This document shows positions 6,081-54,143 of a DNA stretch of 64,000 nt, in pieces. The stretch's first letter is position 1. The number at the start of each line of letters is the position of its first letter. The notes under the pieces were generated by a model. That model was not told where the DNA came from, did no database searches, and saw nothing but the letters and a program-made list of their open reading frames with translations. The stretch is taken from positions 1 through 64,000 of the forward strand of contig DAIDEE010000017.1 in assembly GCA_027308685.1 (NCBI GenBank), given 5' to 3'. The stretch is from Acidocella sp. (lineage in GTDB: Bacteria > Pseudomonadota > Alphaproteobacteria > Acetobacterales > Acetobacteraceae). Made by a program: the position numbers and the translations under genes.

Positions 6081-6107
6081 GAAGTGTTATCCTGAAAAAA
6101 AGTTATA

Positions 6108-6126: not shown

Positions 6127-6209
6127 CGCGTCATTCTTCAAGCTGCTTTAGGTTGCGCTGCACAAACTTTAAATAATGTTGCTGAAAAAGCACATTAATC
6201 AGCGGCGGT

Positions 6210-6254
6210 CACATAAAAATCCCCGGCAGTTGCCTACCGGGGATTTTTTATGTG
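6210..6254 (-). terminator. Rho-independent terminator of ompA-like gene 2
   Basis: Long arms 6210-6226 and 6237-6254 (CACATAAAAATCCCCGG against its complement, with one bulged A) form a near-perfect hairpin. The GC-rich core is flanked by A and T runs on both sides. It lies 15 bases after the stop of the second ompA-like gene and could function in both directions. Confidence 0.88.
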
Positions 6255-6268
6255 AGATCATTTGAAAA

Positions 6269-7357
6269 TTAATCGAGGACGATTTCAACCCGGCGATTCT
6301 GCGGTTCACGCACACCGGGGCCAGTTGGCACCAGCAAATGCGTTTCACCAAACGCGTGGATGGAGATTTCCGAAGCCGGCACACCGTCGGAGACCAGTTT
6401 GGCAGCAACGGTTTTGGCCCGGCGCTGCGACAGGCCCATGTTGTAGGCCGAAGTGCCGGATGTGTCAGTATAGCCGGATACGTTGATGACAGTGGTTTTG
6501 ACAGCCTGGCTATCGATAGCTGCCTGAGCGATCACCTGCTCAGCACGCGGTGTCAGGTTCGACTTATCCCAGTCAAAGAACACCAGGTAAGTTTTGGCCG
6601 GGGCGGGTGCCGGGGCTGCTGCAGGCGCAGGCGCAGGCGCCGGCGCCATCGGGGCCGCAACACCAAAGGCATAACGTGCGCCCAGGGTAAAGGTGTGGGA
6701 AGATTCCTGACCAAATTTTACAGCGCCCGGTACGGGAGAACCAGGTGGGAAACCGCCATAAATGCTGAAATTGCTTTTCTCGGTGCCGGTGATCTGCATG
6801 AAGCGGTATTCAGCTGTCAGGGAAAGGCCCGGAATGCTGGATACAGGATAGGACATGCCCGCGATGGCGTCATAGGCGAAGCTGCCTCGGGTCACGCTGG
6901 AACGGGCATTACCGGCACCAGGAATGGTTATGGAGTAATCAGAGTTAAATATCTGATAGCCAACACCGGCACCGACATAAGGAATGATCGGCAGGCCGAC
7001 CGGAATATCGTAGAGCAGATTGATCATAGGGCCGAATTTATTGTCGTAGCGGCCGGCTTTCGCGCTGAAGCCCGCAGCCTCGCCCTTGCTGGGGGTATTA
7101 TGGATGTAGTCCATATCAAGTTGGACGCGCAAACCGTCGCCAAACCCGTAACCTACACTGGCGATGCCGGTATAGCCAGGGCGATATTGTGCTTTGCCCG
7201 AGCCAGAAACACCAGCGATCGAGCCGCTAACATTAACTGAGTTCTGCAGTGTGGTCCCGGCTTCACCCGCTATGTAAAGCCCTGTGACTGGTTGGGCGTG
7301 AGCGGCCAGCGGCAGAGACAGGCAGGTTGCGGCGGCAAGAATGAGGCGCAGTTTCAT
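6269..7357 (-). CDS. OmpA-like outer-membrane protein 2
   Basis: The most divergent of the three tandem paralogues. The signal peptide MKLRLILAAATCLSLPLAAHA identifies the ATG at 7357 as the likely start (362 residues); an in-frame ATG at 7372 would add only five unhelpful residues. The barrel region extends to about residue 240, then an Ala-Pro linker and an OmpA_C domain (FDWDKSNLTPRAEQVI, VSGYTDTSGTSAYNMGLSQRRAKTV, NRRVEIVLD). It differs from paralogues 1 and 3 at many C-terminal positions that those two share. The protein is expected in the outer membrane with its C-terminal domain bound to peptidoglycan. Its own hairpin terminator follows. Confidence 0.9.
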   Translation of the reverse strand: MKLRLILAAATCLSLPLAAHAQPVTGLYIAGEAGTTLQNSVNVSGSIAGVSGSGKAQYRPGYTGIASVGYGFGDGLRVQLDMDYIHNTPSKGEAAGFSAKAGRYDNKFGPMINLLYDIPVGLPIIPYVGAGVGYQIFNSDYSITIPGAGNARSSVTRGSFAYDAIAGMSYPVSSIPGLSLTAEYRFMQITGTEKSNFSIYGGFPPGSPVPGAVKFGQESSHTFTLGARYAFGVAAPMAPAPAPAPAAAPAPAPAKTYLVFFDWDKSNLTPRAEQVIAQAAIDSQAVKTTVINVSGYTDTSGTSAYNMGLSQRRAKTVAAKLVSDGVPASEISIHAFGETHLLVPTGPGVREPQNRRVEIVLD

Positions 7358-7506
7358 GAAAGCAGGCTCCAAGAATTACTTTAAAACATAAGTCGTTATA
7401 CCATCCCATGACGCTCACTTAACAACAAGCGTATGCTCCGATTGCTATTAAATTGAAAAACTGTGGCAAATACGCCACAGATTCAAGCAATTACGACAAT
7501 TATGAC

Positions 7507-7538
7507 AAAAAACCCCGGCAGATACCTGCCGGGGTTTT
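7507..7538 (-). terminator. Rho-independent terminator of ompA-like gene 3
   Basis: A perfect 13-bp stem, AAAACCCCGGCAG (7509-7521) with its complement at 7526-7538, and an ATAC loop. A six-T run follows on the minus strand (7507-7512). It is placed 24 bases after the stop of the third ompA-like gene. Confidence 0.92.
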
Positions 7539-7562
7539 GCGTTGCACAAGGCTTATTGCGCG

Positions 7563-8654
7563 TTAGTTCAGCACAATTTCAACCCGGCGGTTTTGCGGCT
7601 CCCGAACGTTTGGGCCGGTTGGCACGAGCAGATGGGTTTCACCGAAACCGTGGATGGAAATTTCCGCTGCCGGAACACCATCAGCCATCAGCTTCACAGC
7701 CACGGCCTTAGCCCGGCGGATTGAAAGCCCCTGATTATAAGTGGGAGTGCCGGATGTGTCAGTATAACCCGAAACATCGATGGTGGTGACCTTGGTGGTT
7801 TTTGAGTCGGACGCGGCTTGCGCAATGATCTGGGTGGCGCGCGGCGTCAGGTCGTATTTGTTCCAGTCAAAGAACACCAAGTAGGTTTTGGCCGGAGCCG
7901 GAGCCGGAGCCGCCATTGGGGCGGGTGCTGGCGCCGGGGCCATGGCGGGCGGCGGGAACAGCTGATACCTTAGGCCCAGCAGGAAGGTGTGCGACATTTG
8001 CGAGCCGAGCTTCACCGAAGCTCCAGCTTCGTCATCTCCGGAAATCTTAAAGTTATGACTGCCGACGAGATCCATAAAGCGATAGTCAGCCGTCAAGGAA
8101 AGACCAGGGACCATGGAGATGGGGTAAGACACACCAGCGATCGCCTGGAATACGAAACTACCCTGTGTGGAGTTCACATAGCCCTCTCCAGCATCAAAGT
8201 TATTATAAAGTCTCGAAACATTAGCAAACTGATAGCCGACGCCGGCTCCCAGATAAGGGAAAATCGAGGAGTTAATATCAAAGTCGTATAGCACATTGAA
8301 CATCGCGCCATAGGTCGTTTGGGCACCCGTTTGTTTGCCAGGATTGGGGGCGCCGTTAACTGATGGATTAGCCGTTATGTTATGGGCGGTGTTTTTGTAA
8401 TAGTTACCCTCTATTTCAGCACGGAAACCATTTCCAAGCCCATATCCAATGCTACCCTCGACGGCATAATCGGCGCTGAATTGCAGCTTGCCAGTTTGCT
8501 GTTCACCCGGAAAAGCATAGTTATAATTCGTATCACTGAGCAAGCTGGTGCCTAAACCCAGGCTAACATACGGGCCTGTGACTGCTTGGGCGTGTGCCGC
8601 GACGGGCAATGCAAGGCATGTGGCGGCGGCTAGTAGAGCTCGGAACTTCATCAT
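7563..8654 (-). CDS. OmpA-like outer-membrane protein 3
   Basis: First of the three tandem paralogues in transcription order. The start is one of two adjacent ATG codons (8652-8654, 8649-8651), because a GGGGAG ribosome-binding site lies just upstream and a signal peptide (KFRALLAAATCLALPVAAHA) follows at once. The longer open frame from 8726 is therefore not used. The roughly 363-residue product has a beta-barrel region, an Ala-Pro linker, and an OmpA_C domain almost identical to that of paralogue 1 (FDWNKYDLTPRATQII, GYTDTSGTPTYNQGLSIRR, NRRVEIVLN). The barrel parts of the three proteins differ far more than the C-terminal parts, as expected if surface loops diversify. Role: outer-membrane stability or permeability. 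Confidence 0.9.
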   Translation of the reverse strand: MMKFRALLAAATCLALPVAAHAQAVTGPYVSLGLGTSLLSDTNYNYAFPGEQQTGKLQFSADYAVEGSIGYGLGNGFRAEIEGNYYKNTAHNITANPSVNGAPNPGKQTGAQTTYGAMFNVLYDFDINSSIFPYLGAGVGYQFANVSRLYNNFDAGEGYVNSTQGSFVFQAIAGVSYPISMVPGLSLTADYRFMDLVGSHNFKISGDDEAGASVKLGSQMSHTFLLGLRYQLFPPPAMAPAPAPAPMAAPAPAPAKTYLVFFDWNKYDLTPRATQIIAQAASDSKTTKVTTIDVSGYTDTSGTPTYNQGLSIRRAKAVAVKLMADGVPAAEISIHGFGETHLLVPTGPNVREPQNRRVEIVLN

Positions 8655-8967
8655 GATCTCCCCAAGGTGAATGTGGAAAGATTTTAACATGTTAGCCTCG
8701 AGTTTGTGTAACAATCCTTGAAACAAAACAAAAAGCCTGCTATATGTGATAAAATTGCCACTATTTTAGCTCCGCCTGAAAAAAAGGCAAATTCATCGCG
8801 TGTTTGGGCGGTGATAGGGATTAAAATGCTGGCAATTACGTCCCTGACAGAAGGATATTTTCACCCGAATGGAACGGCGGCATTATTCGGCGGAGTGCAC
8901 CTGCCAAACACAAAAACGGCGCCGCATTGCTGCGACGCCGTTTGTGAAATGCCCTTAAAGCGCCGAA
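8655..8967. other. 313-bp intergenic region between ompA-like gene 3 and the cold-shock gene
   Basis: It holds the 5' leader and presumed promoter of ompA-like gene 3 on the minus strand, and the terminator of the cold-shock gene at 8909-8946. A plus-strand open frame that crosses the region and enters the cold-shock gene has no family features. I could not place a convincing -35/-10 pair. Confidence 0.5.
8909..8946 (-). terminator. Rho-independent terminator of the cold-shock gene
   Basis: Arms 8909-8926 and 8931-8946 (CACAAAAACGGCGCCGCA against a near-complement with two bulges) flank a 4-base TTGC loop, with a five-T run in the minus-strand direction. It begins 22 bases after the stop of the cold-shock gene. 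Confidence 0.82.
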
Positions 8968-41479: not shown

Positions 41480-42364
41480 ATGACATTGAGAACATTTCAA
41501 AGCGGCGGATTGGAACTTGTTTATGAGACCCATGGCCGTTTGAACGATGCTGGTGACAATTGTGTAATGTTACCTACTTATTATACTGGCACTCACGCAT
41601 CGTACATGCGCGTAATAGGCTCGGGCCACGTGCTGGACCCGGCAAAATATTTTATCGTCAGCCCCAATATGCTGGGCAACGGTGTTTCGAGCTCTCCCAG
41701 CAAAACACCGATGTTTTTAAATGCGAGCGTCTCCGATAACATACATCTGCAGCACCAGCTACTAAACACTTTGGGTGTCAGGGAAATCCAGCTACTCTAT
41801 GGCTGGTCGATGGGTGCGATGCAGGGCTATAGTTGGGCGGCGTTGTATCCGGCAATGGTCAAAAATCTTTTAGCGGTATGCGGCTCCGCTCGATGCTGGC
41901 CCCTCAACCGGGTGTTCCTCGAAGGCATCGCCGCTGCGATGGGTCACGATGAAGACCGGCGTGCCTTTGGCCGGTGCTATGCCGGTTGGGCTTATTCAGC
42001 AGCATTTTACCGCGATGAATTATATAAGCCGATGGGTTTTGAAACGCTCGAAGTATTTTTGAAGTATTGGGAAGATGACCATCTAACTTTCGACGCCCGC
42101 GACTTGATGGCAATGCTTTGGACTTGGAAACATGCCGATATAAATGATTCAGCTCTTGCCAGTATAACCGCAAGGACGATCATTATGCCGGCTGATACCG
42201 ATATGTATTTTACGGTGGATGAAGCGCGTATTGAAGCTGCCGCCATCGGACACGCAGAGGTAAGGGTGATAAACTCGCCCTACGGCCATTGCGCTGGCGC
42301 GCCAGGACGGTTTCCGGCGGAAACCGCTCTGGTTGAAGCGGCGATGCGTGAATTGCTCGCCTAA
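41480..42364 (+). CDS. Alpha/beta hydrolase, homoserine O-acetyltransferase (MetX)-like
   Basis: A 294-residue alpha/beta hydrolase. The nucleophile elbow is YGWSMGAMQGY (Ser110), close to the GGSMGGMQ elbow of MetX; the acid and base are plausibly in MPADTDMYF and SPYGHCAGAPG. The middle segment FGRCYAGWAYSAAFYRDELYKPMGFETLEVFLKYWE resembles the MetX lid. The ATG at 41480 with AGGA seven bases upstream is preferred over a TTG at 41447. It may be a divergent acyltransferase or hydrolase. It faces gmaS, with stop codons overlapping by four bases; a link to methylamine use is possible but unproven. Confidence 0.8.
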   Translation: MTLRTFQSGGLELVYETHGRLNDAGDNCVMLPTYYTGTHASYMRVIGSGHVLDPAKYFIVSPNMLGNGVSSSPSKTPMFLNASVSDNIHLQHQLLNTLGVREIQLLYGWSMGAMQGYSWAALYPAMVKNLLAVCGSARCWPLNRVFLEGIAAAMGHDEDRRAFGRCYAGWAYSAAFYRDELYKPMGFETLEVFLKYWEDDHLTFDARDLMAMLWTWKHADINDSALASITARTIIMPADTDMYFTVDEARIEAAAIGHAEVRVINSPYGHCAGAPGRFPAETALVEAAMRELLA

Positions 42365-43662
42365 CAATCAAGAGTTGCGTGACGCTCCCATTCTGAAAGA
42401 TGGGCCGCGTAGTCATTCCATTCAGCGTGCTTCATCTTGGCGTATGATGCGACGAATGAGGCACCAAGCGCAGATTTCAAAACCGCTGAGCCTTCAAAGG
42501 CTCTGAGCGCATCGAGCATATTCAGCGGCAGGCGCTTGGCATCCTTCACCTGATGCCCGTCGGTGTACATGTTGATATCGAGCCGCTTGCCAGGATTTGT
42601 CTTGTGCGCGATGCCGTCCATGCCTGCCGCCAAAATTCCGGCCTGCAACAAATACGGGTTGGCCGCACCGTCCGCGAGACGCATTTCAAAGCGGCCTGGC
42701 TCGGGGATCCGAACCATATGGGTGCGGTTATTGCCTGAGTAGGTCACGGTATTTGGCGCCCATGTTGCGCCCGACGTGGTGCGCGGCGCATTGATGCGCT
42801 TGTAGGAATTTACCGTTGGGTTCAGCAACGCACATAATGCATCGGCATGCGAGATGACCCCGCCAATGAAATGATACCCCAACGTGGCAACACCAAGCTC
42901 ACCTTGTGGGTCCTCAAATAAATTGGTTTTACCCTTCCACAGCGAGACGTGCGAATGACAACCCGAACCTGTCAGACCCAAGAATGGTTTGGGCATGAAA
43001 GTGGCACGCAAGCCATGTTTTTCGGCGATCGATTTGGTCATAAATTTAAAAAACACGTGGCGGTCAGCGGTAACAAGGGCTTTATCGTAACTCCAATTCA
43101 TCTCGAACTGGCCGTTGGCGTCTTCGTGATCGTTCTGATAGGCTTCCCAGCCTAGCGCCAGCATCGCATCGCAAATTTCGGTAATCACATCATAGCGGCG
43201 CATCAAAGCTGCGGCGTCGTAGCAAGGTTTGGTGGCTGTGTCAGCAGAATCAGCAATCGCAGTGCCATCCGCATTGGTGAGGAAAAATTCGCATTCCACC
43301 CCGCTTTTCATCTCAAACCCGGCATCCGCCGCGGCGGCTACCACGCGCTTGAGAACATTGCGCGGCCCCTGCTCGACTGGTTTGCCATCCATCCAGATGT
43401 CGGAGGCGAGCCAACCAACTTCAGGCTTCCAGGGTAGCTGGATCAGTGTTTCCGGGTCCGGTAGTGCAAACATATCGGGGTCGGCCGGCGATAAATCCAG
43501 CCAGGTGGCAAAACCTGCAAAGCCCGCACCGTTTTTTTGCATCCCCGCGATGGCGGACGCGGGCACCAGTTTGGCGCGCTGACTGCCAAACAAGTCGGTG
43601 TAGGAGATCATGAAATATTTTATGCCGCGCTCCGCAGCTATTTTTGCAAGGTCTTTGGCCAT
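42361..43662 (-). CDS. gmaS: Gamma-glutamylmethylamide synthetase (GlnA type III-like)
   Basis: A glutamine synthetase-fold ligase of 433 residues that, in the N-methylglutamate pathway, joins methylamine to glutamate using ATP. Recognisable GS motifs are GVECEFFLTNADG, YQNDHEDANGQFEMNWSYD, KPFLGLTGSGCHSHVSLW, NPTVNSYKRINAP and RIPEPGRFEMRLAD. The divergence from GlnA I and position after mgsABC support GmaS rather than a housekeeping glutamine synthetase; sequence alone cannot fully exclude GlnT. The ATG at 43662 lies five bases after the mgsC stop. Confidence 0.88.
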   Translation of the reverse strand: MAKDLAKIAAERGIKYFMISYTDLFGSQRAKLVPASAIAGMQKNGAGFAGFATWLDLSPADPDMFALPDPETLIQLPWKPEVGWLASDIWMDGKPVEQGPRNVLKRVVAAAADAGFEMKSGVECEFFLTNADGTAIADSADTATKPCYDAAALMRRYDVITEICDAMLALGWEAYQNDHEDANGQFEMNWSYDKALVTADRHVFFKFMTKSIAEKHGLRATFMPKPFLGLTGSGCHSHVSLWKGKTNLFEDPQGELGVATLGYHFIGGVISHADALCALLNPTVNSYKRINAPRTTSGATWAPNTVTYSGNNRTHMVRIPEPGRFEMRLADGAANPYLLQAGILAAGMDGIAHKTNPGKRLDINMYTDGHQVKDAKRLPLNMLDALRAFEGSAVLKSALGASFVASYAKMKHAEWNDYAAHLSEWERHATLDC

Positions 43663-43667
43663 TCGTT

Positions 43668-45008
43668 TTAAATCCCCGTCTTTCCTGGATACCAATCCGT
43701 TCCCGCCAGCGGGATTTGCGCCATCGCAGCGGCTTCGATGGTTAACGCTACCAGGTCCTCTGGTTCCAAATTATGCAAATGACTTTTACCACAGGCGCGG
43801 GCAATGGCTTGCGCCTCCAATGTCAGCACCGAGAGATAATTCGCCAATCGCCGTCCGGCTTTTATGGGGTCGAGCCGCGCAGCCAGCACCGGGTCTTGCG
43901 TGGTGATGCCGGCGGGGTCGCGGCCTTCATGCCAATCATCGTAACTTCCAGCCGTAGTACCAAGCTTTTGATATTCGGTTTCCCATTCTGGGGCGTTATC
44001 GCCAATCGCAATCAATGCCGCCGTACCAATCGCCACAGCATCGGCACCAAGGGCTAGCGCTTTTGCCACGTCGGCACCGGAGCGAATTCCGCCTGAGACA
44101 ATTAATTGCACCTTACGATGTAAACCCAAATCCTGCAGCGCCTTCACAGCCGGGCGAATGGCTGCCAAAATTGGCAGACCGACATGCTCGATGAATACTT
44201 CCTGCGTGGCCGCGGTGCCACCTTGCATACCATCGAGCACCACCACGTCAGCACCGGCTTTTACCGCCAGCGCGGTATCGTAATAGGGCCTGCTGGCACC
44301 TACCTTAATGTAAATCGGCTTTTCCCAGTTGGTTAATTCCCGCAGTTCCAAAATCTTGATTTCCAGATCATCGGGGCCAGTCCAATCAGGGTGGCGGCAA
44401 GCCGAGCGCTGGTCGATGCCTTCGGGTAAATTTCGCATCTGCGCCACCCGAGGAGAAATTTTTTGTCCCAGTAACATGCCGCCGCCGCCTGGCTTGGCGC
44501 CCTGGCCGATTACCACCTCAATCGCATCAGCTTTACGTAGATCAGTCAGGTTCATGCCATAGCGCGACGGCAGGTATTGATAGATCAACGTCTGCGAATG
44601 ACCGCGCTCCTCGGGTGTCATACCGCCATCGCCGGTGGTAGTAGAGGTGCCCGCCAGTGTCGCGCCGCGGCCCAAGGCTTCCTTTGCCTGACCCGACAAG
44701 GCACCAAACGACATGCCAGCAATCGTCACGGGAATTTTTAAATGGATCGGCTTACTGGCAAAGCGAGTGCCCAGCACAACGTCTGTGCCACAGCGTTCCC
44801 GGTAACCCTCTAGTGGATAACGTGACACCGATGCGCCAAGAAATAACAAATCATCAAAATGCGGCAGCTTGCGCTTGGTGCCACCACCACGAATATCATA
44901 AATGCCAGTGGCGGCGGCGCGTTGAATTTCGGCTATAGCGTATTCGTCGAACGTTGCTGATTTGCGTGGCGGGGTGCGCGGAATATGCGGACCAGAGGAG
45001 TCGTTCAT
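43668..45008 (-). CDS. mgsC: N-methylglutamate synthase subunit C (FMN-binding glutamate synthase domain)
   Basis: A 446-residue TIM-barrel protein matching the FMN/synthase domain of GltB (GlxD-like). Characteristic segments are PVTIAGMSFGALSGQAKEALGRGA, GQGAKPGGGGMLLG, KVGASRPYYDTALAVKAGADVVVLDGMQGGT and VSGGIRSGADVAKALALGADAVAIGTAAL. Where canonical GltB has the CxxxxxCxxxxC cluster loop ending in GVATQDP, this protein reads GSYDDWHEGRDPAGITTQDP, with no cysteines, so a 3Fe-4S cluster is not expected. It forms N-methylglutamate with MgsA and MgsB. The ATG at 45008 overlaps the mgsB stop by one base (TGATG). Confidence 0.9.
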   Translation of the reverse strand: MNDSSGPHIPRTPPRKSATFDEYAIAEIQRAAATGIYDIRGGGTKRKLPHFDDLLFLGASVSRYPLEGYRERCGTDVVLGTRFASKPIHLKIPVTIAGMSFGALSGQAKEALGRGATLAGTSTTTGDGGMTPEERGHSQTLIYQYLPSRYGMNLTDLRKADAIEVVIGQGAKPGGGGMLLGQKISPRVAQMRNLPEGIDQRSACRHPDWTGPDDLEIKILELRELTNWEKPIYIKVGASRPYYDTALAVKAGADVVVLDGMQGGTAATQEVFIEHVGLPILAAIRPAVKALQDLGLHRKVQLIVSGGIRSGADVAKALALGADAVAIGTAALIAIGDNAPEWETEYQKLGTTAGSYDDWHEGRDPAGITTQDPVLAARLDPIKAGRRLANYLSVLTLEAQAIARACGKSHLHNLEPEDLVALTIEAAAMAQIPLAGTDWYPGKTGI

Positions 45009-45727
45009 CAATAAGCCCCTGCGTTATCAACGTGAAAATGATATAAAGTGCGCGCCGAACCATAGAGTTTGAAATCATCTGGGGCAGCTTGCACACCGGC
45101 ACGCTGCAACAGATCAACCAAAATCGTCTTGTCAGACGGCGTCATGGGCTTCTCTTCGCAATCCGCGCCGAGGCTTGCGGGCGTGCCGGCACAAAAAATG
45201 CGCGCTTCATACAGGCTGTCACCCAGCGCTTCGCCGGTATCACCCAAAATCACCAAATTACCCGATTGCGCCATGAACGCACTCATGTGACCCACCGAGC
45301 CCTTCACGACGATATCGATCCCCTTCATGGAAATGCCGCAGCGCGCTGAGGCATTGCCATCGATAATCAGTAACCCGCCATGCGCTGTAGCACCCGCCGC
45401 CTGGCTGGCATCACCCTTTACATGAACAACACCAGACATCATGTTTTCGGCCACTCCAGGGCCCGCATTGCCTGCAATAGTGATGGCCGCACCATCATTC
45501 ATGCCAGCACAATAATAGCCGACATGGCCATCAATCTGGATGGTGACCGGCACGGTGACGCCAACCGCCACTGCGTGTTGCCCTCGCGGGTTCAAGATTT
45601 GCCATGTTGTCTGGTTGGTCTGTGGTCCCAGCGCGTGCAGCGCGACGCTTAAATCCCGTAATGGTTCAACCGCCAAGTCGAACGTTACGGGCTCAACGCG
45701 GGTCATTTGTTTCAACGCGCGGCTCAT
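45008..45727 (-). CDS. mgsB: N-methylglutamate synthase subunit B (GXGXG domain)
   Basis: A 239-residue GXGXG beta-helix protein corresponding to the C-terminal structural domain of glutamate synthase (GlxC-like). Repeats with alternating glycines are visible: GHVGYYCAGMNDGAAITIAG, GVVHVKGDASQAAGATAHGG, GIDIVVKGSVGHMSAFMAQ, GNLVILGDTGEALGDSLYEARIFCAG. The ATG at 45727 overlaps the mgsA stop (ATGA), so the longer frame is not needed. It acts with MgsA and MgsC in gamma-glutamylmethylamide to N-methylglutamate conversion. Confidence 0.91.
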   Translation of the reverse strand: MSRALKQMTRVEPVTFDLAVEPLRDLSVALHALGPQTNQTTWQILNPRGQHAVAVGVTVPVTIQIDGHVGYYCAGMNDGAAITIAGNAGPGVAENMMSGVVHVKGDASQAAGATAHGGLLIIDGNASARCGISMKGIDIVVKGSVGHMSAFMAQSGNLVILGDTGEALGDSLYEARIFCAGTPASLGADCEEKPMTPSDKTILVDLLQRAGVQAAPDDFKLYGSARTLYHFHVDNAGAY

Positions 45728-46605
45728 GCCGCACGCTCCCAAAAATAAACTTTCGCAGGCTCAGGCTCAAATAATTTCGCCTTTGAAATGCCCGGCAAAT
45801 CCACCAGCGCCCGGTATTCCGAACCGAACGCCACGTAATCAGCAGTTTCGGCCATCACAGCGGGCTTGCAGGCCACCGGGTCGCGCAGCACGCCAAAACC
45901 TGACTCCGTGCCGACAACAAACGTATAAAACCCATCCAAAGTGTCAAGCGCGGCCGTCAGCGCCTCATCTAGCTTCGCGCCTTCGCGCAGCTTCCAGCTT
46001 AAAAAACCTGCCGCCACTTCGGTGTCGTTTTGAGTCTCAAATCTCATATTTTCACGAATTAGTGTCCGGCGAATGTCATTGTGGTTTGACAATGAGCCAT
46101 TGTGCACCAAACACTGGTCAGGTCCCGTGGAGAAAGGGTGCGCCCCCTGGGTTGTCACGGCTGATTCGGTGGCCATGCGGGTATGGGCAATGGCATGGCT
46201 GCCCGCCATTCCAGCCAGACCAAACCGGGTTGAAACCAACGCCGGTAAACCGACACCCTTAAACAACTCCATCCGTGCCCCGCTGGCAACGATATCAACC
46301 GTTGGGTAAGAGGCCAACAATATACGCCGCACTTCGGCTTCACGCACTACCGGGAGGCTTATCACTGCATGATCATCACGCACCGTTAGTGCTACCTGCA
46401 GCGCGTGGCCCATTGCTGCGAAATCAAAACCAACCGGCGCTCGCAACGTGAATTTCATGCAGTCGGCGGCACCATCACCATAGATGGCAAATCCGGCGCT
46501 ATCGGGGCCGCGGTCCGTTAAGACTTCCAACATTGCTGCTGTCATGGCGCCTAGTTCAGGCTCCAAGGCTCGATTTTTGAGAAATAACCCGGCTATGCCG
46601 CACAT
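45724..46605 (-). CDS. mgsA: N-methylglutamate synthase subunit A (class II glutamine amidotransferase)
   Basis: A 293-residue Ntn-type amidotransferase with catalytic Cys2 exposed after Met removal (MCGIAGLFLKN). Typical GATase II segments follow: ESAVTTQGAHPFSTGPDQCLVHNGSLSNHNDIRR, ETQNDTEVAAGFLSW and DGFYTFVVGTESGFGVLRDP. It corresponds to the N-terminal domain of GltB (GlxB-like) and would hydrolyse the gamma-glutamyl amide bond. It is the first gene of mgsABC-gmaS and has a readable promoter 30-60 bases upstream. Confidence 0.92.
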   Translation of the reverse strand: MCGIAGLFLKNRALEPELGAMTAAMLEVLTDRGPDSAGFAIYGDGAADCMKFTLRAPVGFDFAAMGHALQVALTVRDDHAVISLPVVREAEVRRILLASYPTVDIVASGARMELFKGVGLPALVSTRFGLAGMAGSHAIAHTRMATESAVTTQGAHPFSTGPDQCLVHNGSLSNHNDIRRTLIRENMRFETQNDTEVAAGFLSWKLREGAKLDEALTAALDTLDGFYTFVVGTESGFGVLRDPVACKPAVMAETADYVAFGSEYRALVDLPGISKAKLFEPEPAKVYFWERAA

Positions 46606-46635
46606 GCGTTAAACCTATCAAATATGACGGTTTGA

Positions 46636-46664
46636 ATGTTACCCAGCATATCGGGCCTCGTCAA
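46636..46664 (-). promoter_or_regulatory. Sigma70-like promoter of mgsABC-gmaS
   Basis: On the minus strand a -35 TTGACG (46659-46664) and -10 TAACAT (46636-46641) are separated by exactly 17 bases. Transcription would start near 46629, giving a leader of about 24 bases before the mgsA ATG. A short AGG lies eight bases before the start. The match is by eye. Confidence 0.55.
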
Positions 46665-46668
46665 CTGA

Positions 46669-46687
46669 TAAGAATAATCAATTCTTA
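46669..46687. promoter_or_regulatory. Palindrome adjoining the mgs promoter, operator candidate
   Basis: TAAGAATAATCAATTCTTA is a perfect 7-5-7 inverted repeat ending four bases upstream of the proposed -35 box. This placement suits an activator or an upstream-acting repressor. The Xre-cupin gene ends 14 bases away and is the obvious candidate to bind here. Seen directly; function inferred. Confidence 0.5.
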
Positions 46688-46700
46688 CCAGGAAATAAAT

Positions 46701-47414
46701 TCAGCTCGGCTCGCGAGCATAGGTGATGATGGAGAGGTAAGTCATCGGTTTTACGATCAATTTCTCCGGGCCATGCGGCGCACCAGAATCAAAAAGCAGC
46801 GCATCACCGGGAGTCAGATGATATGATTGGTCGCCATGACGATACATAACCTCGCCAGTAAGCATATAGATAAACTCGGTGCCCTCGTGCTGAAAGGCCG
46901 GGTAAGGTGCGGCATCTGCGTGCAGCGTGATTAGATAAGGCTCTACCACAACGGCCCCACCCAGCGCGTGACCAAGCAAGCTATACTGATGACCGGCTTT
47001 GGTGCCGCGCCGCTCGATGATGACGCCCGTACCAGCTTTCACGAACGAACAATCACGCTTTTCCTCGAAGGTTGAAAAAAACGTTGTGAGCGGCACATTT
47101 AAGGCGGTGGCCAACGCCTGCAAGCTACCCAGCGAGGGCGATATCTGCCCATTTTCAATTTTTGATAACATGCCACCTGACAAGCCGGCCGCCGTTGCCA
47201 GCTCAGAGACTGTAATCCCCACGCGACGGCGCAACTGGCGCACCTGTACGCCAATGGCCTGCTCCAACGTCAAGTCGGAAACCGCGGCAGCACTTGAACC
47301 GGTCATATAAACGTCAGCCACCACCTCAGGTAATCCGGCTTCGTTCAATGCGTCCGCCAAGGGTGTTTTAAAGATTTTCAATGGGTTAGACTTAGCCTGG
47401 GGCCGCGATGACAT
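46701..47414 (-). CDS. Xre-cupin transcriptional regulator of the methylamine cluster
   Basis: A 237-residue protein with an N-terminal extension of about 50 residues, an Xre helix-turn-helix (VRQLRRRVGITVSELATAAGLSGGMLSKIENGQISPSLGSLQALATAL, about residues 57-105) and a C-terminal cupin barrel (AFQHEGTEFIYMLTGEVMYRHGDQSYHLTPGDALLFDSGAPHGPE). This is the PuuR-type architecture; PuuR senses polyamine in the gamma-glutamyl-putrescine pathway, so a methylated amine or gamma-glutamyl ligand is a reasonable guess. It lies between folD and mgsA on the same strand. Confidence 0.9.
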   Translation of the reverse strand: MSSRPQAKSNPLKIFKTPLADALNEAGLPEVVADVYMTGSSAAAVSDLTLEQAIGVQVRQLRRRVGITVSELATAAGLSGGMLSKIENGQISPSLGSLQALATALNVPLTTFFSTFEEKRDCSFVKAGTGVIIERRGTKAGHQYSLLGHALGGAVVVEPYLITLHADAAPYPAFQHEGTEFIYMLTGEVMYRHGDQSYHLTPGDALLFDSGAPHGPEKLIVKPMTYLSIITYAREPS

Positions 47415-47504
47415 GCTGCAATCTCCTCAACCTCACGTATTATGACGAAAAAATACAAAAAGCACAGTGTCGATTGCAATTTAGAGACGGAATTAGACTA
47501 TTAT

Positions 47505-48386
47505 TTAACCAGCGCCCTCAATTCTTTTTGCGGCAGTTAGGGTGTTGCGCAGCAAACAGGCAATGGTCATAGGGCCAACGCCGCCGGGAACCGGGGTGAT
47601 CAGTCCAGCGACGCCCTGCGCTTCGGCGAAAGCGACATCGCCTACCAGCTTGGTTTTGCCATCACTGGCGGGAACCCGGTTGATCCCCACGTCGATTACA
47701 GTCGCACCTGGCTTAATCCAGGCGCCCTTGATGATGTCCGGACGCCCGACAGCGGCGACGAGTATATCGGCTCCCCGGCAAATTTCAGCCAAGTTGCGGC
47801 TGCGCGAATGTGCGATGGTGACGGTGCAATTTTGCGCCAGCAAAAGCTGCGCCACGGGCTTGCCGACGATGTTGGAACGCCCCACCACCACCGCGTTCAG
47901 CCCGGTCAAATCACCTAGCGCGTCGGTCAGAAGCATCACACACCCCAGCGGCGTGCAGGGCACCAGCCCTGGCAGCCCGATAGCCAGACGCCCGGCGTTG
48001 ATCACATGAAAACCATCGACATCCTTATCAGGGTTGATGGTATCCAAGACTTTGGTTGAATCGATGTGCCCCGGCAGAGGTAATTGCACCAAAATACCGT
48101 GTACTTTGGAGTCAGCATTCAGCCGTTCGACCAAAGCGATCAACTCAGGTTCCGGCGTTTCAACCGGCAACTTGAACTCCAGCGAATGCATCCCCGCCAG
48201 CACGGTTTGCTTGGCTTTATTGCGGACATAAACCTGACTGGCCGGGTCTTCTCCCACCAGCACCACGGCGAGGCCCGGTTGCAGGCCGCGTGAGGCTCTC
48301 AAACTGGCAACTTCGTTACGGATGCTCTCTACCAGCCCCGCCGCGAACGCCTTGCCGTCGATGATTTTGGTTTCGATTTGACTCAC
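47505..48386 (-). CDS. folD: FolD, methylenetetrahydrofolate dehydrogenase/cyclohydrolase
   Basis: A 293-residue bifunctional enzyme converting 5,10-methylene-THF to 10-formyl-THF with NADP. The substrate lysine region is [14 protein letters not shown]; other motifs are [45 protein letters not shown] and [18 protein letters not shown]. The start is GTG at 48386, overlapping the purU stop (GTGA). It processes the C1 unit released by N-methylglutamate dehydrogenase. Confidence 0.96.
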
Positions 48387-49249
48387 GGCGTGAACACCAC
48401 CGTTTTTTTGCCGTTCAGAATCACCCGGTCCTCCAGATGGTAGCGCACGGCGCGCGCCAGCACCCGCCGCTCAATATCACGGCCTTTGCGAACCAGATCA
48501 TCGGGTGTGTCGGCATGGGTAATCCGCTCAACATCCTGTTCAATGATTGGGCCTTCATCAAGGTCGGTGGTGACATAATGCGCGGTGGCGCCAATCAATT
48601 TTACACCACGCGAATGCGCCTGATGGTAAGGCTTGGCGCCCTTGAAACCGGGCAGAAACGAATGGTGGATGTTGATACATTTGCCACTCAGCTTGGCGGC
48701 CAGCGCATCGGAGAGCACCTGCATGTAACGAGCCAGCACCACCAGTTCGGACTTGGTCTCCTTCACCAGCGCCCAAATCTGGCCTTCCTGTTCCATCTTG
48801 GTGTCCTTGGTGATGGGCAGATGGTGAAATGGCAGGCCGGCCATGTCGATGCCGGCGAAATGCTCGATGCCGTGGTTCGAGACAATCGCGGTGGGTGTCA
48901 TCGCCAGTTCACCGATGCGCCAGCGGTACAGCAGATCAACCAGGCAATGGTCGAACTTTGATACCAATAGCAGCACGCGGCGCGGCGACGTGTGGACGTT
49001 GAGGTTCCAGTTGAAGCCGAATTGTGTGGCGATATCGGTAAAGCCAGCCCGGATATCCTCAATCGGCGTCTCACCGTTGATGTCAAACGCGATGCGGGCA
49101 AAAAACTTTCCGGTCTCGGCATCATCAAATTGCTGGGCTTCACGAATGTCACCGCCATGCTGAAACAAATAGGTGGCAACGCCGGCCACAATACCGGGGC
49201 GGTTCTGGCAGGAGAATGTCAGGACATATTGCGACTTCGACATGGGCAT
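48383..49249 (-). CDS. purU: PurU, formyltetrahydrofolate deformylase
   Basis: A 288-residue enzyme hydrolysing 10-formyl-THF to formate and THF. The N-terminal ACT domain ([25 protein letters not shown]) is followed by a formyltransferase fold with the catalytic Asn-His-Asp set in [10 protein letters not shown] and [16 protein letters not shown]. The first ATG (49249) follows the mgdD stop by three bases; a TTG at 49252 and an ATG at 49243 are alternatives. It regenerates THF for the pathway and exports C1 as formate. Confidence 0.95.
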
Positions 49250-49252
49250 CAA

Positions 49253-49759
49253 TCAACCTTCAAATTCACGGCAGGCTTCAATGAGGGATGCGTATAGGGA
49301 CTGCGCGAAGCTTCGGAAACAGGCCAGAGCGAATACCTCCCCTTCCCGCCAAAGCTGCACCGGAATATGGCCTGCCAGAGTCAGGGCCGTGCCATTGAGA
49401 GGGAATACACTCTCATGCAGGTCGATCGGCACCAGCTTGGCGAGGGCTTCGGTGGCGTGAGGACCGGCGATGTGAAATATCGACCGGCCATCGGTCTGGT
49501 CGGTGATGGCGGCATAAGGGCTAACGGCGGCCAGAATCGTAGGTGCTGCGCCGAGCGCAAGCCAGGAGTACGGCCCTGCCCAAAGATACAATACATCGTT
49601 GCACGTGATGCCAACCGCAGTTGTCGGCAATGCCACGCCTAAAGCGGCCTCCAAGTCCACGGCGGTGTTTTTAAAAGCGGCAATACTCGTCAGGGGGCGC
49701 AACGGCGCAGCGCTTACCATCGGCGTGGCGGAAAACGTGAAACTCTCAGCCTTAAGCAT
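49253..49759 (-). CDS. mgdD: N-methylglutamate dehydrogenase subunit D (SoxG-like)
   Basis: A 168-residue protein of the SoxG family, the gamma subunit of heterotetrameric sarcosine oxidase-type enzymes. Segments SWLALG, FHIAGPHATEALAKLVPIDLHESVFPLNGTALT and YASLIEACREFEG match the family's folate-binding-like fold. The ATG at 49759 (MLKAESF) overlaps the mgdC stop by eight bases; the longer frame to 49870 has no homology and lies inside mgdC. Sequence identity to SoxG is naturally low, so the call leans on context. Confidence 0.85.
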   Translation of the reverse strand: MLKAESFTFSATPMVSAAPLRPLTSIAAFKNTAVDLEAALGVALPTTAVGITCNDVLYLWAGPYSWLALGAAPTILAAVSPYAAITDQTDGRSIFHIAGPHATEALAKLVPIDLHESVFPLNGTALTLAGHIPVQLWREGEVFALACFRSFAQSLYASLIEACREFEG

Positions 49760-52538
49760 GCAGGCGGCTCCCTTGCACGTCGTAAAATACCGGGCTGACG
49801 ACTTCCGCCAGGAAATCGCTGTTGCGGATAGGGTCATACACCCGGATGATCTCGCCGTGGCGGGAGGCACCGTGCTTTAAAATTGCCAGCCCGATGGAAT
49901 GACCCAAGGTTGGTGAATACACCGCCGAGGTGACATGGCCTTGGTCGTTGGCGGCCACTGGCTCGGCGTCATGCGCCAGCAGATGCGCCCCGCCGCGCAA
50001 CCGATCAGACTCATTCACCGGCTTCAGCCCCACCAGGTTAGGGCGGGCTGAGTCCATCAGTGCCGGGCGTGCTGCGAGCGCCCGGCCGATAAAATCCTTC
50101 TTTTTAGATAATAATTTACCAAACCCGAGATCATGGGCGCTGGTCTGGCCGTTCAGCTCATTACCCGCCGGGTGGCCCTTCTCGACCCGCATCACCCCCA
50201 GCGCCTCGGTGCCATACGGGGTGATGCCGAATTCCGCACCGGCTGCCATCAAGGCTGCCGCGAGGGCACCACCAAAGCGGGCGGGGACAGCAATTTCGTA
50301 GGCCAGTTCGCCGGAAAATGACAGACGGAATAACCGGGCCGAGGTGCCGCCGCAGATGGTTACGTCACCGGCGGCCATATAGCCAAACACGGCGTTTGAA
50401 ACATCATAGGCTTCATCAACAATTTTTCGTAATACATCGCGTGCGTGCGGGCCCGCCAGGGCGATCTGCGCCCATTGGTCGGTGATGGAAATAAACCGCA
50501 CATCCAACTCCGGCCACAGCCATTGATGGCAAAATTCCAGATGTTGAAACACCTTACCCGCGTTGGCAGTGGTGGTGGTCATCACGTAGTGCTGCTCACC
50601 AATACGCGCGGTGGTGCCGTCATCCATCACGAAACCATCTTCGCGCAACATCAACCCATAGCGGGCGCGGCCAACGGCGAGGTTGGTCCAGCTATTGGTG
50701 TAAATACATTCAAGGAATTTGGCGGCATCAGGACCTTGAATATCAATTTTTCCGAGAGTGGTGACATCACAAATACCCACGCGCTGACGCACCGCCAGAA
50801 CTTCGCGGTTGGTTGCCGCCAGCCAATCCTCGCCGGGTTTGGGGAAATATTGCGCCCGCAGCCACAGGCCAGTTTCCACAAACACGGCGCCGAGGGATTT
50901 CGCCCATTCATGCGTGGGAGTGAGACGTGTGGGTTTGAATAATTTGCCGCGATGCGGCCCCGCCAAAGCGCCAAGTGCCACCGGCGTGTAGGGCGGGCGG
51001 AACCGGGTTGTGCCAGTCTCAGGCACGGTTTTTCCAGTCGCCATTGCCATCAGAGCCAGGCCATTCACATTGGCGGTTTTGCCTTGGTCGGTCGCCATGC
51101 CAAGCGTGGTATAGCGCTTCAAATGCTCGACCGCGATGAAGCCTTCCTGCTTGGCCAAACGAATATCAGCCGCCGTTACGTCGTTTTGGAAATCGACAAA
51201 GGCTTTTGCGTCAGCATCAGGCACCGACCATAGCGGGGTGATATTTTGATTGATTTCCTCGCCTGCCGCCGCACCCACGGCTGTCATTCCAGGCGGCAAC
51301 CCATCCGGCACAAACGCCGCGATGGCATCATCCCACACCGGCTTGTCATCGAGATGTGACGTGAGATGCAGCACCGGATTCCAACCGCCGGACATGGCCA
51401 CCACGTCACAACCAAATCGCACCACCCCACCATCACGCGTACAGATTTCAACGCCCTCAACGGCCAGTTTGCCGACAGCGCGACGAATCACCGCGCCTGA
51501 AAATACCGGCACCGAAAATGCTGCCGCCATATCTCGGATCACGGCCGACGACGCGGGACGGGCATCCACCACCGCCGCCACCGCCATCACACTGGCAGCC
51601 ATAGCGGCGAGGGCGCTGGCAGCACCATCATGATTGATGAACAGCACGGCCCGCGCGCCGGGGGCCACCGCATAACGAGTGATGTAGGTTTCCACCGCAC
51701 CAGCGAGCATCACACCGGGGAGGTCGTTATTGGTGAACACCATAGGTCGCTCAATAGCGCCAGTGGCTAATACGCTGCGCTTCGCCACAATCCGCCAGTA
51801 ACGCTGGCGTGGTTGATGCGGTGCAGGCACCACCAGATGGTCGGCCACACGTTCCACCGCACCATAGGTGCCGCCGTCGTAAACGCCAAATACCGTGGTA
51901 CGGGGCAGATATTTTACGTTCTGCATATCAACCGCATCACTGGGCGGCTGCTCATCGCATAAAATCACGCGGGCACCGCCGATGGCGGCTTCATGCGCGG
52001 CCTTCACCCCCACCGCACCCGCACCGATCACCAGCACGTCGCAAAATAAATGGCCGGATTCATAGGTGTCAGGGTCGGGTAGTGCAGCGTTGCGGCCCAA
52101 GCCAGCGGCTTTACGAATCAGCGGCTCGTATAATTTTTCCCAGAACGATGCCGGCCACATAAAGGTTTTATAGTAGAACCCCGCTGCAAAGAACGGCGAG
52201 AGCTTGCCGTTGATAGACAATAGATCGTGTTGCAGCGATGGAAACCGGTTCTGGCTATGCGCAACCAGCCCCTCATACAATTCCACCATCGTCGCCCGCG
52301 TATTTGGCTCGCGGCGGGCTCCCATTCGCAATTCCACCAACGCATTTGGCTCCTCGGAACCAGCCGACAGAATCCCGCGTGGACGGTGATATTTGAAGCT
52401 TCGGCCCACCAGTTTTATATCGTTGGCCAGCAGTGCCGAGGCCAGCGTATCACCTGCATAGCCCTGCAACGATCGGCCATCGAAGGTGAAGTTAATCGGC
52501 TTGCTGCGGTCGATGATCCCGCCGTGCGAGAGTCTCAT
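49752..52538 (-). CDS. mgdC: N-methylglutamate dehydrogenase subunit C (SoxA-like, large subunit)
   Basis: A 928-residue flavoprotein homologous to the alpha subunit of sarcosine oxidase. An N-terminal ferredoxin-like domain (INFTFDGRSLQGYAGDTLASALLAN), a Rossmann NAD/FAD domain (DVLVIGAGAVGVKAAHEAA, near residue 170; SVLATGAIERPMVF) and a C-terminal GcvT/aminomethyltransferase-like THF-binding region (from about residue 560: RVGICDVTTLGKIDIQGPDAAKFLE, GTEALGVMRVEKGHP) are all visible. It would oxidise N-methylglutamate with MgdA/B/D and transfer the methylene to THF. It overlaps mgdB by four bases. Confidence 0.92.
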   Translation of the reverse strand: MRLSHGGIIDRSKPINFTFDGRSLQGYAGDTLASALLANDIKLVGRSFKYHRPRGILSAGSEEPNALVELRMGARREPNTRATMVELYEGLVAHSQNRFPSLQHDLLSINGKLSPFFAAGFYYKTFMWPASFWEKLYEPLIRKAAGLGRNAALPDPDTYESGHLFCDVLVIGAGAVGVKAAHEAAIGGARVILCDEQPPSDAVDMQNVKYLPRTTVFGVYDGGTYGAVERVADHLVVPAPHQPRQRYWRIVAKRSVLATGAIERPMVFTNNDLPGVMLAGAVETYITRYAVAPGARAVLFINHDGAASALAAMAASVMAVAAVVDARPASSAVIRDMAAAFSVPVFSGAVIRRAVGKLAVEGVEICTRDGGVVRFGCDVVAMSGGWNPVLHLTSHLDDKPVWDDAIAAFVPDGLPPGMTAVGAAAGEEINQNITPLWSVPDADAKAFVDFQNDVTAADIRLAKQEGFIAVEHLKRYTTLGMATDQGKTANVNGLALMAMATGKTVPETGTTRFRPPYTPVALGALAGPHRGKLFKPTRLTPTHEWAKSLGAVFVETGLWLRAQYFPKPGEDWLAATNREVLAVRQRVGICDVTTLGKIDIQGPDAAKFLECIYTNSWTNLAVGRARYGLMLREDGFVMDDGTTARIGEQHYVMTTTTANAGKVFQHLEFCHQWLWPELDVRFISITDQWAQIALAGPHARDVLRKIVDEAYDVSNAVFGYMAAGDVTICGGTSARLFRLSFSGELAYEIAVPARFGGALAAALMAAGAEFGITPYGTEALGVMRVEKGHPAGNELNGQTSAHDLGFGKLLSKKKDFIGRALAARPALMDSARPNLVGLKPVNESDRLRGGAHLLAHDAEPVAANDQGHVTSAVYSPTLGHSIGLAILKHGASRHGEIIRVYDPIRNSDFLAEVVSPVFYDVQGSRLHA

Positions 52539-52813
52539 GATGACCGGCCCAGGGCGACGTCATACGCTGATTCCACCGCCATTATTTGATGGTTGCGTAA
52601 ATTGCGTGTCACCACCAACCAGGCATGGCAGCCGACGTTATGATACCACAACTCACGATGAACTCCATTCGGATTTTCTCTGAAATACACATAATCAGTC
52701 CATTCCGGCGTGGGTTCTGCTCCGCCATCACGCGGACGCGTCACCGTGGCATCGCCATGGTAGAGAAATTCCTGCAAACCACGCTCGCCGCAATGCGGAC
52801 AGTGAATACGCAT
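52535..52813 (-). CDS. mgdB: N-methylglutamate dehydrogenase subunit B (SoxD-like, zinc site)
   Basis: A 92-residue delta-type subunit. Cysteines in MRIHCPHCGERG (C5, C8) together with H58 and C62 in ELWYHNVGCHAW reproduce the Cys-Cys-His-Cys zinc-site spacing of sarcosine oxidase delta subunits. The ATG at 52813 overlaps the mgdA stop by one base (TGATG), and the stop overlaps the mgdC start. Confidence 0.93.
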   Translation of the reverse strand: MRIHCPHCGERGLQEFLYHGDATVTRPRDGGAEPTPEWTDYVYFRENPNGVHRELWYHNVGCHAWLVVTRNLRNHQIMAVESAYDVALGRSS

Positions 52814-54069
52814 CAGTGCAAATTCGGCGTGGCACCGACTCCCTTTTCATCGATCACATAGCCTTTGGCAAAGCGGTCCAGCCGGTAGGCGCTGGCCACC
52901 TCATGCGGCTCATCGCGTGCGATCAGATGCGCAAAACACCAGCCAGACGCCGGCGTTGCCTTGAAGCCGCCGTAGCACCAGCCGGCATTCAGATAGAGAT
53001 TTTCGACCGGCGATTTATCGATGATCGGCGAGCCATCCATCGTCATATCCATAATACCGCCCCAGTGCCGCACCAGCCGTGCGCGACCCAGCATCGGCAT
53101 CAACGCCATGCCGCCTTCACACACATCCTCAATGGTCGGCAGATTGCCGCGGCTGGCATACGAATTATACCCATCGATATCCCCGCCGAAAACCAAACCG
53201 CCTTTATCCGACTGCGAAATATAAAAATGCCCGGCGCCGAAGGTGATCACGTTGTCGATCAGCGGCTTGATCGATTCCGAAACAAACGCCTGCAACGCAT
53301 GGCTCTCGATCGGCAGACGGATACCCGCCATCGCCGCCACGCGTGATGAATTGCCCGCACAGGCCAGGCCGATTTTTTTGCCCGCAATATAGCCACGGGT
53401 GGTTTCCACACCTACAGCCTTGCCATTTTCGGTTTTAATCCCGGTGACTTCGCAATTCTGGATGATATCCACACCCAAATGGTCCGCTGCCCGTGCATAA
53501 CCCCACGCCACGGCGTCATGCCGCACCGTGCCGCCGCGCCGTTGTAATAGCGCCCCTTGAATTGGGAAGCGGGCATTTTCATAGTCCAGATACGGTACTT
53601 TTGCGCGCAACGCAGCGAGATCAAGCAACTCGGCATCAATCCCATTCAGGCGCATGGAATTACCCCGCCGCGCATAGGCGTCGCGTTGCGCATCGGAGTG
53701 GATGATATTCAGCACCCCGCGTTGGCTCACCATGGCGTTATAATTGATATCCTGCTCCAGCCCTTCCCATAGTTTCATTGAAAACTCGTAGAACGGTGCA
53801 TTGCCCGGTAGCAGATAATTCGAGCGGATGATGGTGGTGTTGCGGCCAATGCTGCCATTGCCGAGCCAACCTTTTTCCAGCACCGCGATACGCATCCGCT
53901 GATGATTTTTGGCAAGATAATAGGCCGTCGCTAACCCGTGCCCTCCACCACCAACGATGATCACGTCATACACGCCAACCGGCGACGCATCCCGCCAAGC
54001 CGGACGCCAGCCGGTATGGCCGCGCAACGCCTCCCTCATGACTGAAAAAACTGAATATTTATCGACCAT
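52813..54069 (-). CDS. mgdA: N-methylglutamate dehydrogenase subunit A (SoxB-like, flavoprotein)
   Basis: A 418-residue subunit of the DAO superfamily carrying the substrate-oxidising flavin site. The ATG at 54069 gives MVDKYSVFSVMREALRGHTG, typical of the family; the much longer open frame to 54366 reads into the metallophosphoesterase gene and is spurious. The FAD motif is YDVIIVGGGGHGLATAYYLA. LLQRRGGTVRHDAVAWGYAR contains the His that, in sarcosine oxidase beta subunits, carries the covalent FMN. It heads mgdABCD-purU-folD and has a good promoter upstream. Confidence 0.92.
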   Translation of the reverse strand: MVDKYSVFSVMREALRGHTGWRPAWRDASPVGVYDVIIVGGGGHGLATAYYLAKNHQRMRIAVLEKGWLGNGSIGRNTTIIRSNYLLPGNAPFYEFSMKLWEGLEQDINYNAMVSQRGVLNIIHSDAQRDAYARRGNSMRLNGIDAELLDLAALRAKVPYLDYENARFPIQGALLQRRGGTVRHDAVAWGYARAADHLGVDIIQNCEVTGIKTENGKAVGVETTRGYIAGKKIGLACAGNSSRVAAMAGIRLPIESHALQAFVSESIKPLIDNVITFGAGHFYISQSDKGGLVFGGDIDGYNSYASRGNLPTIEDVCEGGMALMPMLGRARLVRHWGGIMDMTMDGSPIIDKSPVENLYLNAGWCYGGFKATPASGWCFAHLIARDEPHEVASAYRLDRFAKGYVIDEKGVGATPNLH

Positions 54070-54104: not shown

Positions 54105-54133
54105 AAGAAACTACATTTATATATAAGAAACTA
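54105..54133. promoter_or_regulatory. Direct repeats in the mgd promoter, operator candidate
   Basis: AAGAAACTA occurs at 54105-54113 and again at 54125-54133, exactly 20 bases (two helical turns) apart. The left copy overlaps a 6-1-6 palindrome TTCTTTAAAAGAA (54097-54109). One copy covers the expected transcription start and the other lies in the promoter spacer. This could be a repressor or activator site. Confidence 0.45.
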
Positions 54134-54143
54134 ATTTCGTCAA
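54116..54143 (-). promoter_or_regulatory. Sigma70-like promoter of mgdABCD-purU-folD
   Basis: The -35 TTGACG (54138-54143, minus strand) and -10 TATAAA (54116-54121) are 16 bases apart, in a strongly AT-rich context. The start would be near 54109, about 40 bases before the mgdA ATG. The -35 box is identical to that proposed for mgsABC-gmaS and overlaps the end of the metallophosphoesterase gene. Confidence 0.6.

Follow-up and report, generated by a model that had tools for sequence, protein, structure and literature searches.

The window analysed here, that is, the whole stretch of 64,000 nucleotides from Acidocella sp. (contig DAIDEE010000017.1, assembly GCA_027308685.1), holds on its minus strand, at 42361-54069, eleven uninterrupted open reading frames (ORFs) in the order mgdA-mgdB-mgdC-mgdD-purU-folD-XRE-mgsA-mgsB-mgsC-gmaS. 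With high confidence they are read as a block for the N-methylglutamate (NMG) pathway of methylamine use, in which a core folate gene, folD, is lodged in the mgd unit and the alpha-type dehydrogenase subunit, MgdC, has a reduced dinucleotide-binding domain, perhaps without bound NAD+. Gene content, phylogeny, residue conservation, copy numbers and domain loss were observed, and from these we infer reactions, operons, regulation and the loss of NAD+. The pathway is already known, and the block is of a known kind in a known gene order; new are the embedded sole FolD, a conserved palindrome before mgsA and, above all, the alpha-subunit variant of Acidocella. The genome of the window comprises 2.86 Mb and is 99.8% complete. 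The features concerned are the following:

52813-54069, minus strand: mgdA, beta-type flavin subunit of NMG dehydrogenase; best match of solved structure 2gag_B; in one clade with NMG-linked MgdA
52535-52813, minus strand: mgdB, delta-type subunit; PF04267 (SoxD, Pfam) 106.8 bits, cut-off 27
49752-52538, minus strand: mgdC, alpha-type subunit with Fer2_4, dinucleotide, A3 and GcvT folate domains; soxA family 1297.5, cut-off 1164
51219-52049, minus strand: reduced dinucleotide-binding domain of MgdC, residues 164-440; about 25 residues gone after 196 and about 34 after 426 in comparison with relatives
49253-49759, minus strand: mgdD, gamma-type subunit, assigned by TIGR01375 (85.3 bits, below cut-off) and position
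48383-49252, minus strand: purU, 10-formyl-tetrahydrofolate deformylase; PurU model above cut-off; sole full-length copy found in the genome
47505-48386, minus strand: folD, methylene-tetrahydrofolate dehydrogenase/cyclohydrolase; FolD model above cut-off; sole copy found in the genome
46701-47414, minus strand: XRE-cupin transcriptional regulator, by profile matches
45724-46605, minus strand: mgsA, amidotransferase subunit of N-methylglutamate synthase; GATase_6/7; N-terminus MCGIAG
45008-45742, minus strand: mgsB, GXGXG subunit; likelier start an ATG at about 45727
43668-45011, minus strand: mgsC, Glu_synthase-domain subunit; 80% to Paracoccus aminophilus, 86% to Rhizobium etli
42361-43662, minus strand: gmaS, gamma-glutamylmethylamide synthetase; type III glutamate-ammonia ligase 676.6 bits, cut-off 469.6
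46670-46686, minus strand: palindrome AAGAATTGATTATTCTT, adjoining the -35-like TTGACG before mgsA
54116-54143, minus strand: promoter-like TTGACG-16-TATAAA upstream of mgdA, found by eye and not listed by a consensus scan

The alpha-subunit variant was recognized among 59 proteins of the MgdC/SoxA set, i.e. 12 MgdC of Acidocella and 47 others, including two sarcosine-oxidase-type paralogs of Acidocella genome G009; frames of at least 850 residues and at least 300 bits were counted, so that truncated or broken MgdC, e.g. from genomes G001, G004 and G005, are not included. The window MgdC has 928 residues, compared with 969-1009 in NMG-linked relatives not cut by contig ends (P. aminophilus 975, R. 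etli 984). After residue 196 it retains 7 residues versus 24-33 in the 47 other rows, and after residue 426 it retains 4 versus 36-44. All 12 Acidocella MgdC have lost the second segment and have the first shortened to 7-21 residues, and the GG-LL turn is lost in 10 of them, with GG kept in L174 and L050. In the MgdA and MgdC trees these GG-keeping sequences are placed such that the turn was lost at least two times (some nodes are weakly supported). Both segments are present in 46 of the 47 other rows; the remaining one (L103:2695-5475, a distant mgdC homologue of 38% from an uncultured alphaproteobacterium) is without the same second segment, apparently independently. An AlphaFold2 model of the full-length Hyphomicrobium MgdC (mean pLDDT 83.2, pTM 0.60) displays helices at 223-236 and 462-479, of which the model of the window MgdC (mean pLDDT 75.2, pTM 0.49) shows neither; in the latter, pLDDT is mostly 77-91 over residues 161-380, with one block at 65, and falls below 50 at the second lost-helix site (about residue 427). 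The window model shares the alpha-subunit fold of heterotetrameric sarcosine oxidase (1vrq_A/2gag_A: Z 50.9/50.5 over 796/794 residues, rmsd 10.3, 41% identity), but 2gag_A has both segments, and a complete dinucleotide domain with GG-LL turn and C-terminal helix is absent from the window MgdC.

According to an excerpt of PMC9045290, NADH and not a flavin is presumably the ligand of the alpha subunit's Rossmann domain. From sequence comparison we tentatively suggest, at clearly under an even chance, that the NMG dehydrogenase of Acidocella dispensed with the bound NAD+ of its superfamily through loss of two alpha-subunit helices. If true, Acidocella Mgd would be a working natural enzyme for directly testing the role of bound NAD+ in the sarcosine-oxidase superfamily, which to our knowledge is unexplained. 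Just short of an even chance is given to a trimming without functional effect, after which the remaining domain still binds NAD+. GxGxxG and the acidic residue past the second strand are retained in the window MgdC, and dN/dS values of 0.07-0.14 were obtained for the domain in four pairs, of which some have saturated dS; both favour harmless trimming and weigh against a loss of NAD+. Against such a loss there is also the outcome for relaxed selection, a candidate that was rejected: the distance of the dinucleotide domain relative to the GcvT domain is 1.73 in Acidocella, near the 1.65 of Sphingomonadales (1.33 in other rows), so that no clear extra relaxation is seen. The 41 of 66 conserved columns that are unchanged in all 12 Acidocella sequences can be cited for trimming, but set beside 83 of 100 in the GcvT domain they speak against it, as do the second segment missing throughout Acidocella, the turn missing from most sequences and its repeated loss in the partly weak trees. 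As judged from these patterns, the domain is still under selection, but probably without a normal dinucleotide site.

The second new point concerns folD. The genome holds one FolD match over cut-off, and this is the copy of the block; among 150 drawn genomes of the same family, which we take to be Acetobacteraceae, a match was obtained in 142, with exactly one in 137 of these. In a FolD tree of 68 rows the 21 Acidocella rows, mgd-linked or not, form a group of their own (support 0.76), which is joined by 18 rows from other genera of their family (support 0.88), followed by the FolDs of Bosea (NMG-linked) and Xanthobacter as next nearest; a second, divergent FolD of genome G008 falls outside the Acidocella group. 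PurU (at least 71% identity) was found in 34 of 38 Acidocella genomes, and the remaining four are 77-92% complete. The earlier note, made on the letters and ORFs of this DNA, had seen purU-folD as an insertion into the mgd operon; this has to be corrected, because the FolD is the only one, groups with those of its own family and is accompanied by a purU that most Acidocella genomes possess. The window is not alone in this arrangement: in Bosea sp. 117, too, the single FolD above cut-off lies inside an NMG locus.

Four genomes without a gmaS match retain part of the arrangement: cobO-kinase-phosphatase-purU-folD-XRE in G017, purU-folD-XRE in G014 and cobO-one ORF-folD-XRE-mgtC in G002 and G011. 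The window block has matching outer neighbours, with cobO at one end and mgtC-metB-sseA at the opposite end (the names cobO, kinase, phosphatase, mgtC, metB and sseA were assigned by eye). Loss of NMG genes from around a folD that the cell needs is a simpler explanation than their late gain, because the XRE gene elsewhere adjoins NMG genes and because the first branches within the FolD tree are lineages with NMG genes, albeit with weak support. That purU and folD came into the operon along with the pathway, as genes dedicated to disposal, is unlikely. purU adjoins mgdD and overlaps folD, clusters of Paracoccus, Bosea, Novosphingobium and Rhizobium hold both genes too, and the NMG-linked copy of Bosea is one of the closest FolDs from beyond the family, all of which would suit recruitment; this is, however, opposed by the single FolD, by the separate placement in the tree of the NMG-linked FolDs of Novosphingobium, Paracoccus and Rhizobium, by the wide occurrence of purU and by the folD-XRE or purU-folD-XRE loci that lack mgd at that place in the four genomes. 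A core role and a disposal role of purU-folD may also go together. With NMG genes lying around core folate genes, expression of FolD would depend on a catabolic operon, and the mgd unit or an internal promoter would have to be active without methylamine. A core folate step would thus be tied to methylamine genes, and basal expression is predicted.

The assignment to the NMG pathway itself is carried by MgdA and GmaS. MgdA, which was not among the family profile searches and was placed via its solved-structure match, has 73-74% identity with MgdA of P. aminophilus, R. etli and Pseudosulfitobacter, 57% with a sarcosine-oxidase-like protein of Azospirillum and 49-51% with the beta subunits encoded in two soxBDAG-glyA operons. 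A tree of 73 rows unites the NMG-linked rows in a clade with 54 members, inside which 17 Acidocella rows (from 12 genes, of which five were fetched two times) constitute one group (support 0.999). The soxBDAG-glyA rows belong to a different clade together with four other Acidocella paralogs (L173, L175, L176, L179), separate sarcosine-oxidase-type genes of genomes G009, G011 and G012. Thus, although 2gag_B is its best solved match, MgdA is set apart from sarcosine oxidases with glyA-bearing operons, and mgdABCD is a four-gene dehydrogenase of the NMG-linked clade. His184 of MgdA is aligned with His173 of 2gag_B, presumably the carrier of covalent FMN. The window genome has one SoxD match, that of mgdB.

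For GmaS the best solved match is RhGmaS (7cql, 653.6 bits; next chain 355). In RhGmaS of Rhodovulum sp. 12E13, Asp177, Glu186 and Arg312 are catalytic, and Ala48 and Trp300 occupy the glutamine synthetase positions of the ammonia-binding Asp and the Glu-flap Glu (PMC7948447, excerpt). By alignment, Ala48, Asp177, Glu186, Trp300 and Arg312 correspond to A49, D178, E187, W301 and R313 of the window GmaS, which therefore shares both the catalytic and the distinguishing residues, and all five are invariant in 14 of 14 aligned GmaS. In a FastTree phylogeny of 103 translated stretches (as in the other tree sets, those covering at least 75% of the query), 98 rows including P. aminophilus and R. etli cluster together (support 0.83), and outside this cluster lie the 42% paralog from the window genome and the three proteins of that genome that resemble glutamine synthetase; the tree contains no characterised GlnT, and the annotation name glnT covers GmaS too. 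The closest named relatives by GmaS, among the matches listed, are metagenome-assembled genomes of Acidocella (96-97%). Within 25 Acidocella genomes gmaS is present in 16, in full length in 13, cut by contig ends in two (G009, G016) and partial in one (G023, where the first 134 residues alone matched, about 1.1 kb before the contig end).

The three-gene N-methylglutamate synthase, mgsABC, directly adjoins gmaS. Junctions overlap or touch at mgdA/B, B/C, C/D, mgdD/purU, purU/folD (an overlap) and mgsA/B/C, gmaS starts 5 bases past mgsC, and gaps are confined to those upstream of the XRE gene (90 bases) and of mgsA (95 bases). An ordered block of eleven genes with equivalents in other genera is not due to chance. 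It is very improbable that mgd is a sarcosine oxidase and mgs-gmaS a nitrogen-scavenging set of the GlnT/Glx type, brought together as neighbours by chance: the NCBI model names soxA/soxD/soxG and type III glutamate-ammonia ligase would fit, but MgdA stands with NMG-linked MgdA, GmaS, compared here with glutamine synthetases but with no characterised GlnT, has Ala and Trp at their ammonia-site Asp and catalytic Glu positions, and other Acidocella have sarcosine-oxidase-type paralogs besides. The earlier note had described a complete set of NMG pathway genes in one 11.7-kb block with a regulator between the mgd and mgs parts, and had named phylogenies of GmaS, MgsC and MgdC as a check. The eleven intact ORFs agree with this, GmaS and MgdA fall with proteins of NMG clusters, apart from glutamine synthetases and sarcosine oxidases, respectively, and the gene families were indeed recognisable by profile, although two NCBIfam scores stay below the curated cut-offs (SoxD 98.2 versus 116.5, SoxG 85.3 versus 143.95).

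In the proposed pathway GmaS would join methylamine and glutamate at the cost of ATP, MgsABC would transfer the methylamino group to 2-oxoglutarate, yielding N-methylglutamate, and MgdABCD would oxidise this to glutamate and pass the methyl group to tetrahydrofolate (THF) as methylene-THF. FolD and PurU would convert methylene-THF to formate, which could be oxidised by formate dehydrogenase or reloaded by FTHFS; the cell would gain nitrogen and possibly electrons. The genome encodes a formate dehydrogenase alpha subunit (951 bits, cut-off 666) and FTHFS (860 bits). Use of nitrogen from methylamine is the most secure interpretation; formate may also yield energy in view of these two genes, and methylamine as a carbon source for growth is likewise possible on gene content. 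Full-length GcvP was not found in the window genome (best 23.9 bits, below cut-off), nor in G004, G006 and G010 (G004 and G010 are just 83% complete); a link of the missing glycine cleavage to the NMG block was rejected, as G011, which has no gmaS, is also without full-length GcvP. GcvT-domain matches of the genome are MgdC, MgdD and one ORF of 283 residues, taken as YgfZ-like by its length alone, and this speaks against trimethylamine N-oxide (TMAO) demethylase and DmmD, which carry that domain. For the MauA light chain the genome gave no match, but none of 14 controls matched either.

Some points weigh against this reading of the block. The support of the NMG-linked MgdA clade is just 0.82; the remnant purU-folD-XRE loci could be due to a late gain of the NMG genes and not to their loss; methylamine as source of carbon and energy did not support growth of a gmaS-bearing strain (PMC5934484, excerpt); and Mgd is reported in homarine catabolism in the accessible part of PMC13390433, so that it need not serve methylamine alone. 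Methylamine use by Acidocella looks undescribed in the open-access literature, in which Acidocella and methylamine come together in a single paper, on taxonomy, and Acidocella and N-methylglutamate in none; subscription journals were mostly outside that search.

Gene order was compared in one GmaS scan of named genomes, from which the best 80 of 588 confirmed relatives were taken; counts thus concern the closest GmaS alone, and many of the 80 loci are cut by contig ends. mgsABC is present at 68 of these loci, and at 39 mgdA and mgdC lie within the fetched stretch as well; an XRE relative is present at 44, purU at 12, folD at five and both of the latter at four. The order had been thought to be unusual, but Novosphingobium sp. 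AP12 (L083) has mgdABCD-purU-folD-XRE-mgsABC-gmaS exactly as in the window, and the published methylotroph P. aminophilus (pAMI6, L133) has mgdABCD-folD-purU-XRE. Novosphingobium AP12 differs in a second FolD over cut-off elsewhere in its genome and in an MgdC with both segments. P. aminophilus shares mgsABC-gmaS, mgdABCD and folD/purU/XRE directly past mgdD, but has two separate operons, folD before purU, three folD-purU loci (PMC4543880, excerpt) and dmm genes nearby, whereas the window has one block, purU before folD and a single FolD. In R. etli p42e, folD-purU adjoins gmaS-mgsCBA-XRE, and mgd is divergent. For tri-, di- and monomethylamine clusters of marine Rhodobacteraceae, gmaS, mgsCBA, mgdDCBA, folD, purU and XRE genes are named together in an excerpt of PMC7574528; these clusters are linked to tmm/tdm/dmm, while the window is without a GcvT-domain candidate for Tdm or DmmD. 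In Acidocella G021 (L041:8280-18475) the block is split between mgsA and the XRE gene by a stretch in which, by eye, two short-chain dehydrogenases and isoprenoid/hopanoid genes (dxs, ispH, radical SAM, glycosyltransferase) can be made out.

The genes probably form two transcription units, mgdABCD-purU-folD and, from the palindrome-bearing promoter, mgsABC-gmaS, with the XRE gene between them. The palindrome has the form AAGAAT-N5-ATTCTT directly upstream of TTGAC before mgsA, where its exact form occurs as the only one in the window genome. It was found at 0-1 mismatch in 14 of 15 Acidocella upstream stretches (two genomes counted twice), with 0 shuffles as good, and with at most two mismatches in 12 of 66 other stretches versus an expectation of 0.5 (the 12 include two more Acidocella copies, and a few rows occur more than once). 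Upstream of mgdA, none of 64 stretches contained the 12-base palindrome within three mismatches. As a site of the XRE regulator it was rejected: its 10-base form (at most two mismatches, Acidocella loci included) occurs at 23 of 34 XRE-adjacent loci, 17 of 23 without detected XRE and 5 of 8 with XRE elsewhere, and since it is as common without a detected XRE gene as beside one, it is not attributed to this regulator. One published regulator of mgd is TmaR of R. pomeroyi, an AraC-type activator (PMC13390433, excerpt). Single promoter matches mean little, because the consensus scan listed 10 sites against a shuffle mean of 8.8; TTGAC before mgdA recurs, by eye, in Acidocella relatives. Also by eye, a spaced inverted repeat like AATTCYTGTG...CACAGGAATT precedes mgdA in L165, L166, L168, L169, L171, L177 and L178 and is diverged in the window's own clade.

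The 42% GmaS-like ligase of the window genome (G000:C9:22234-23532; L131:10184-11551) has by eye a urea carboxylase, an amidase/allophanate hydrolase and a permease as neighbours, and its region is perhaps another amine or amide nitrogen route. Elsewhere in the window, at 4944-8726 on the minus strand, three neighbouring similar OmpA-like outer-membrane genes were noticed by eye.

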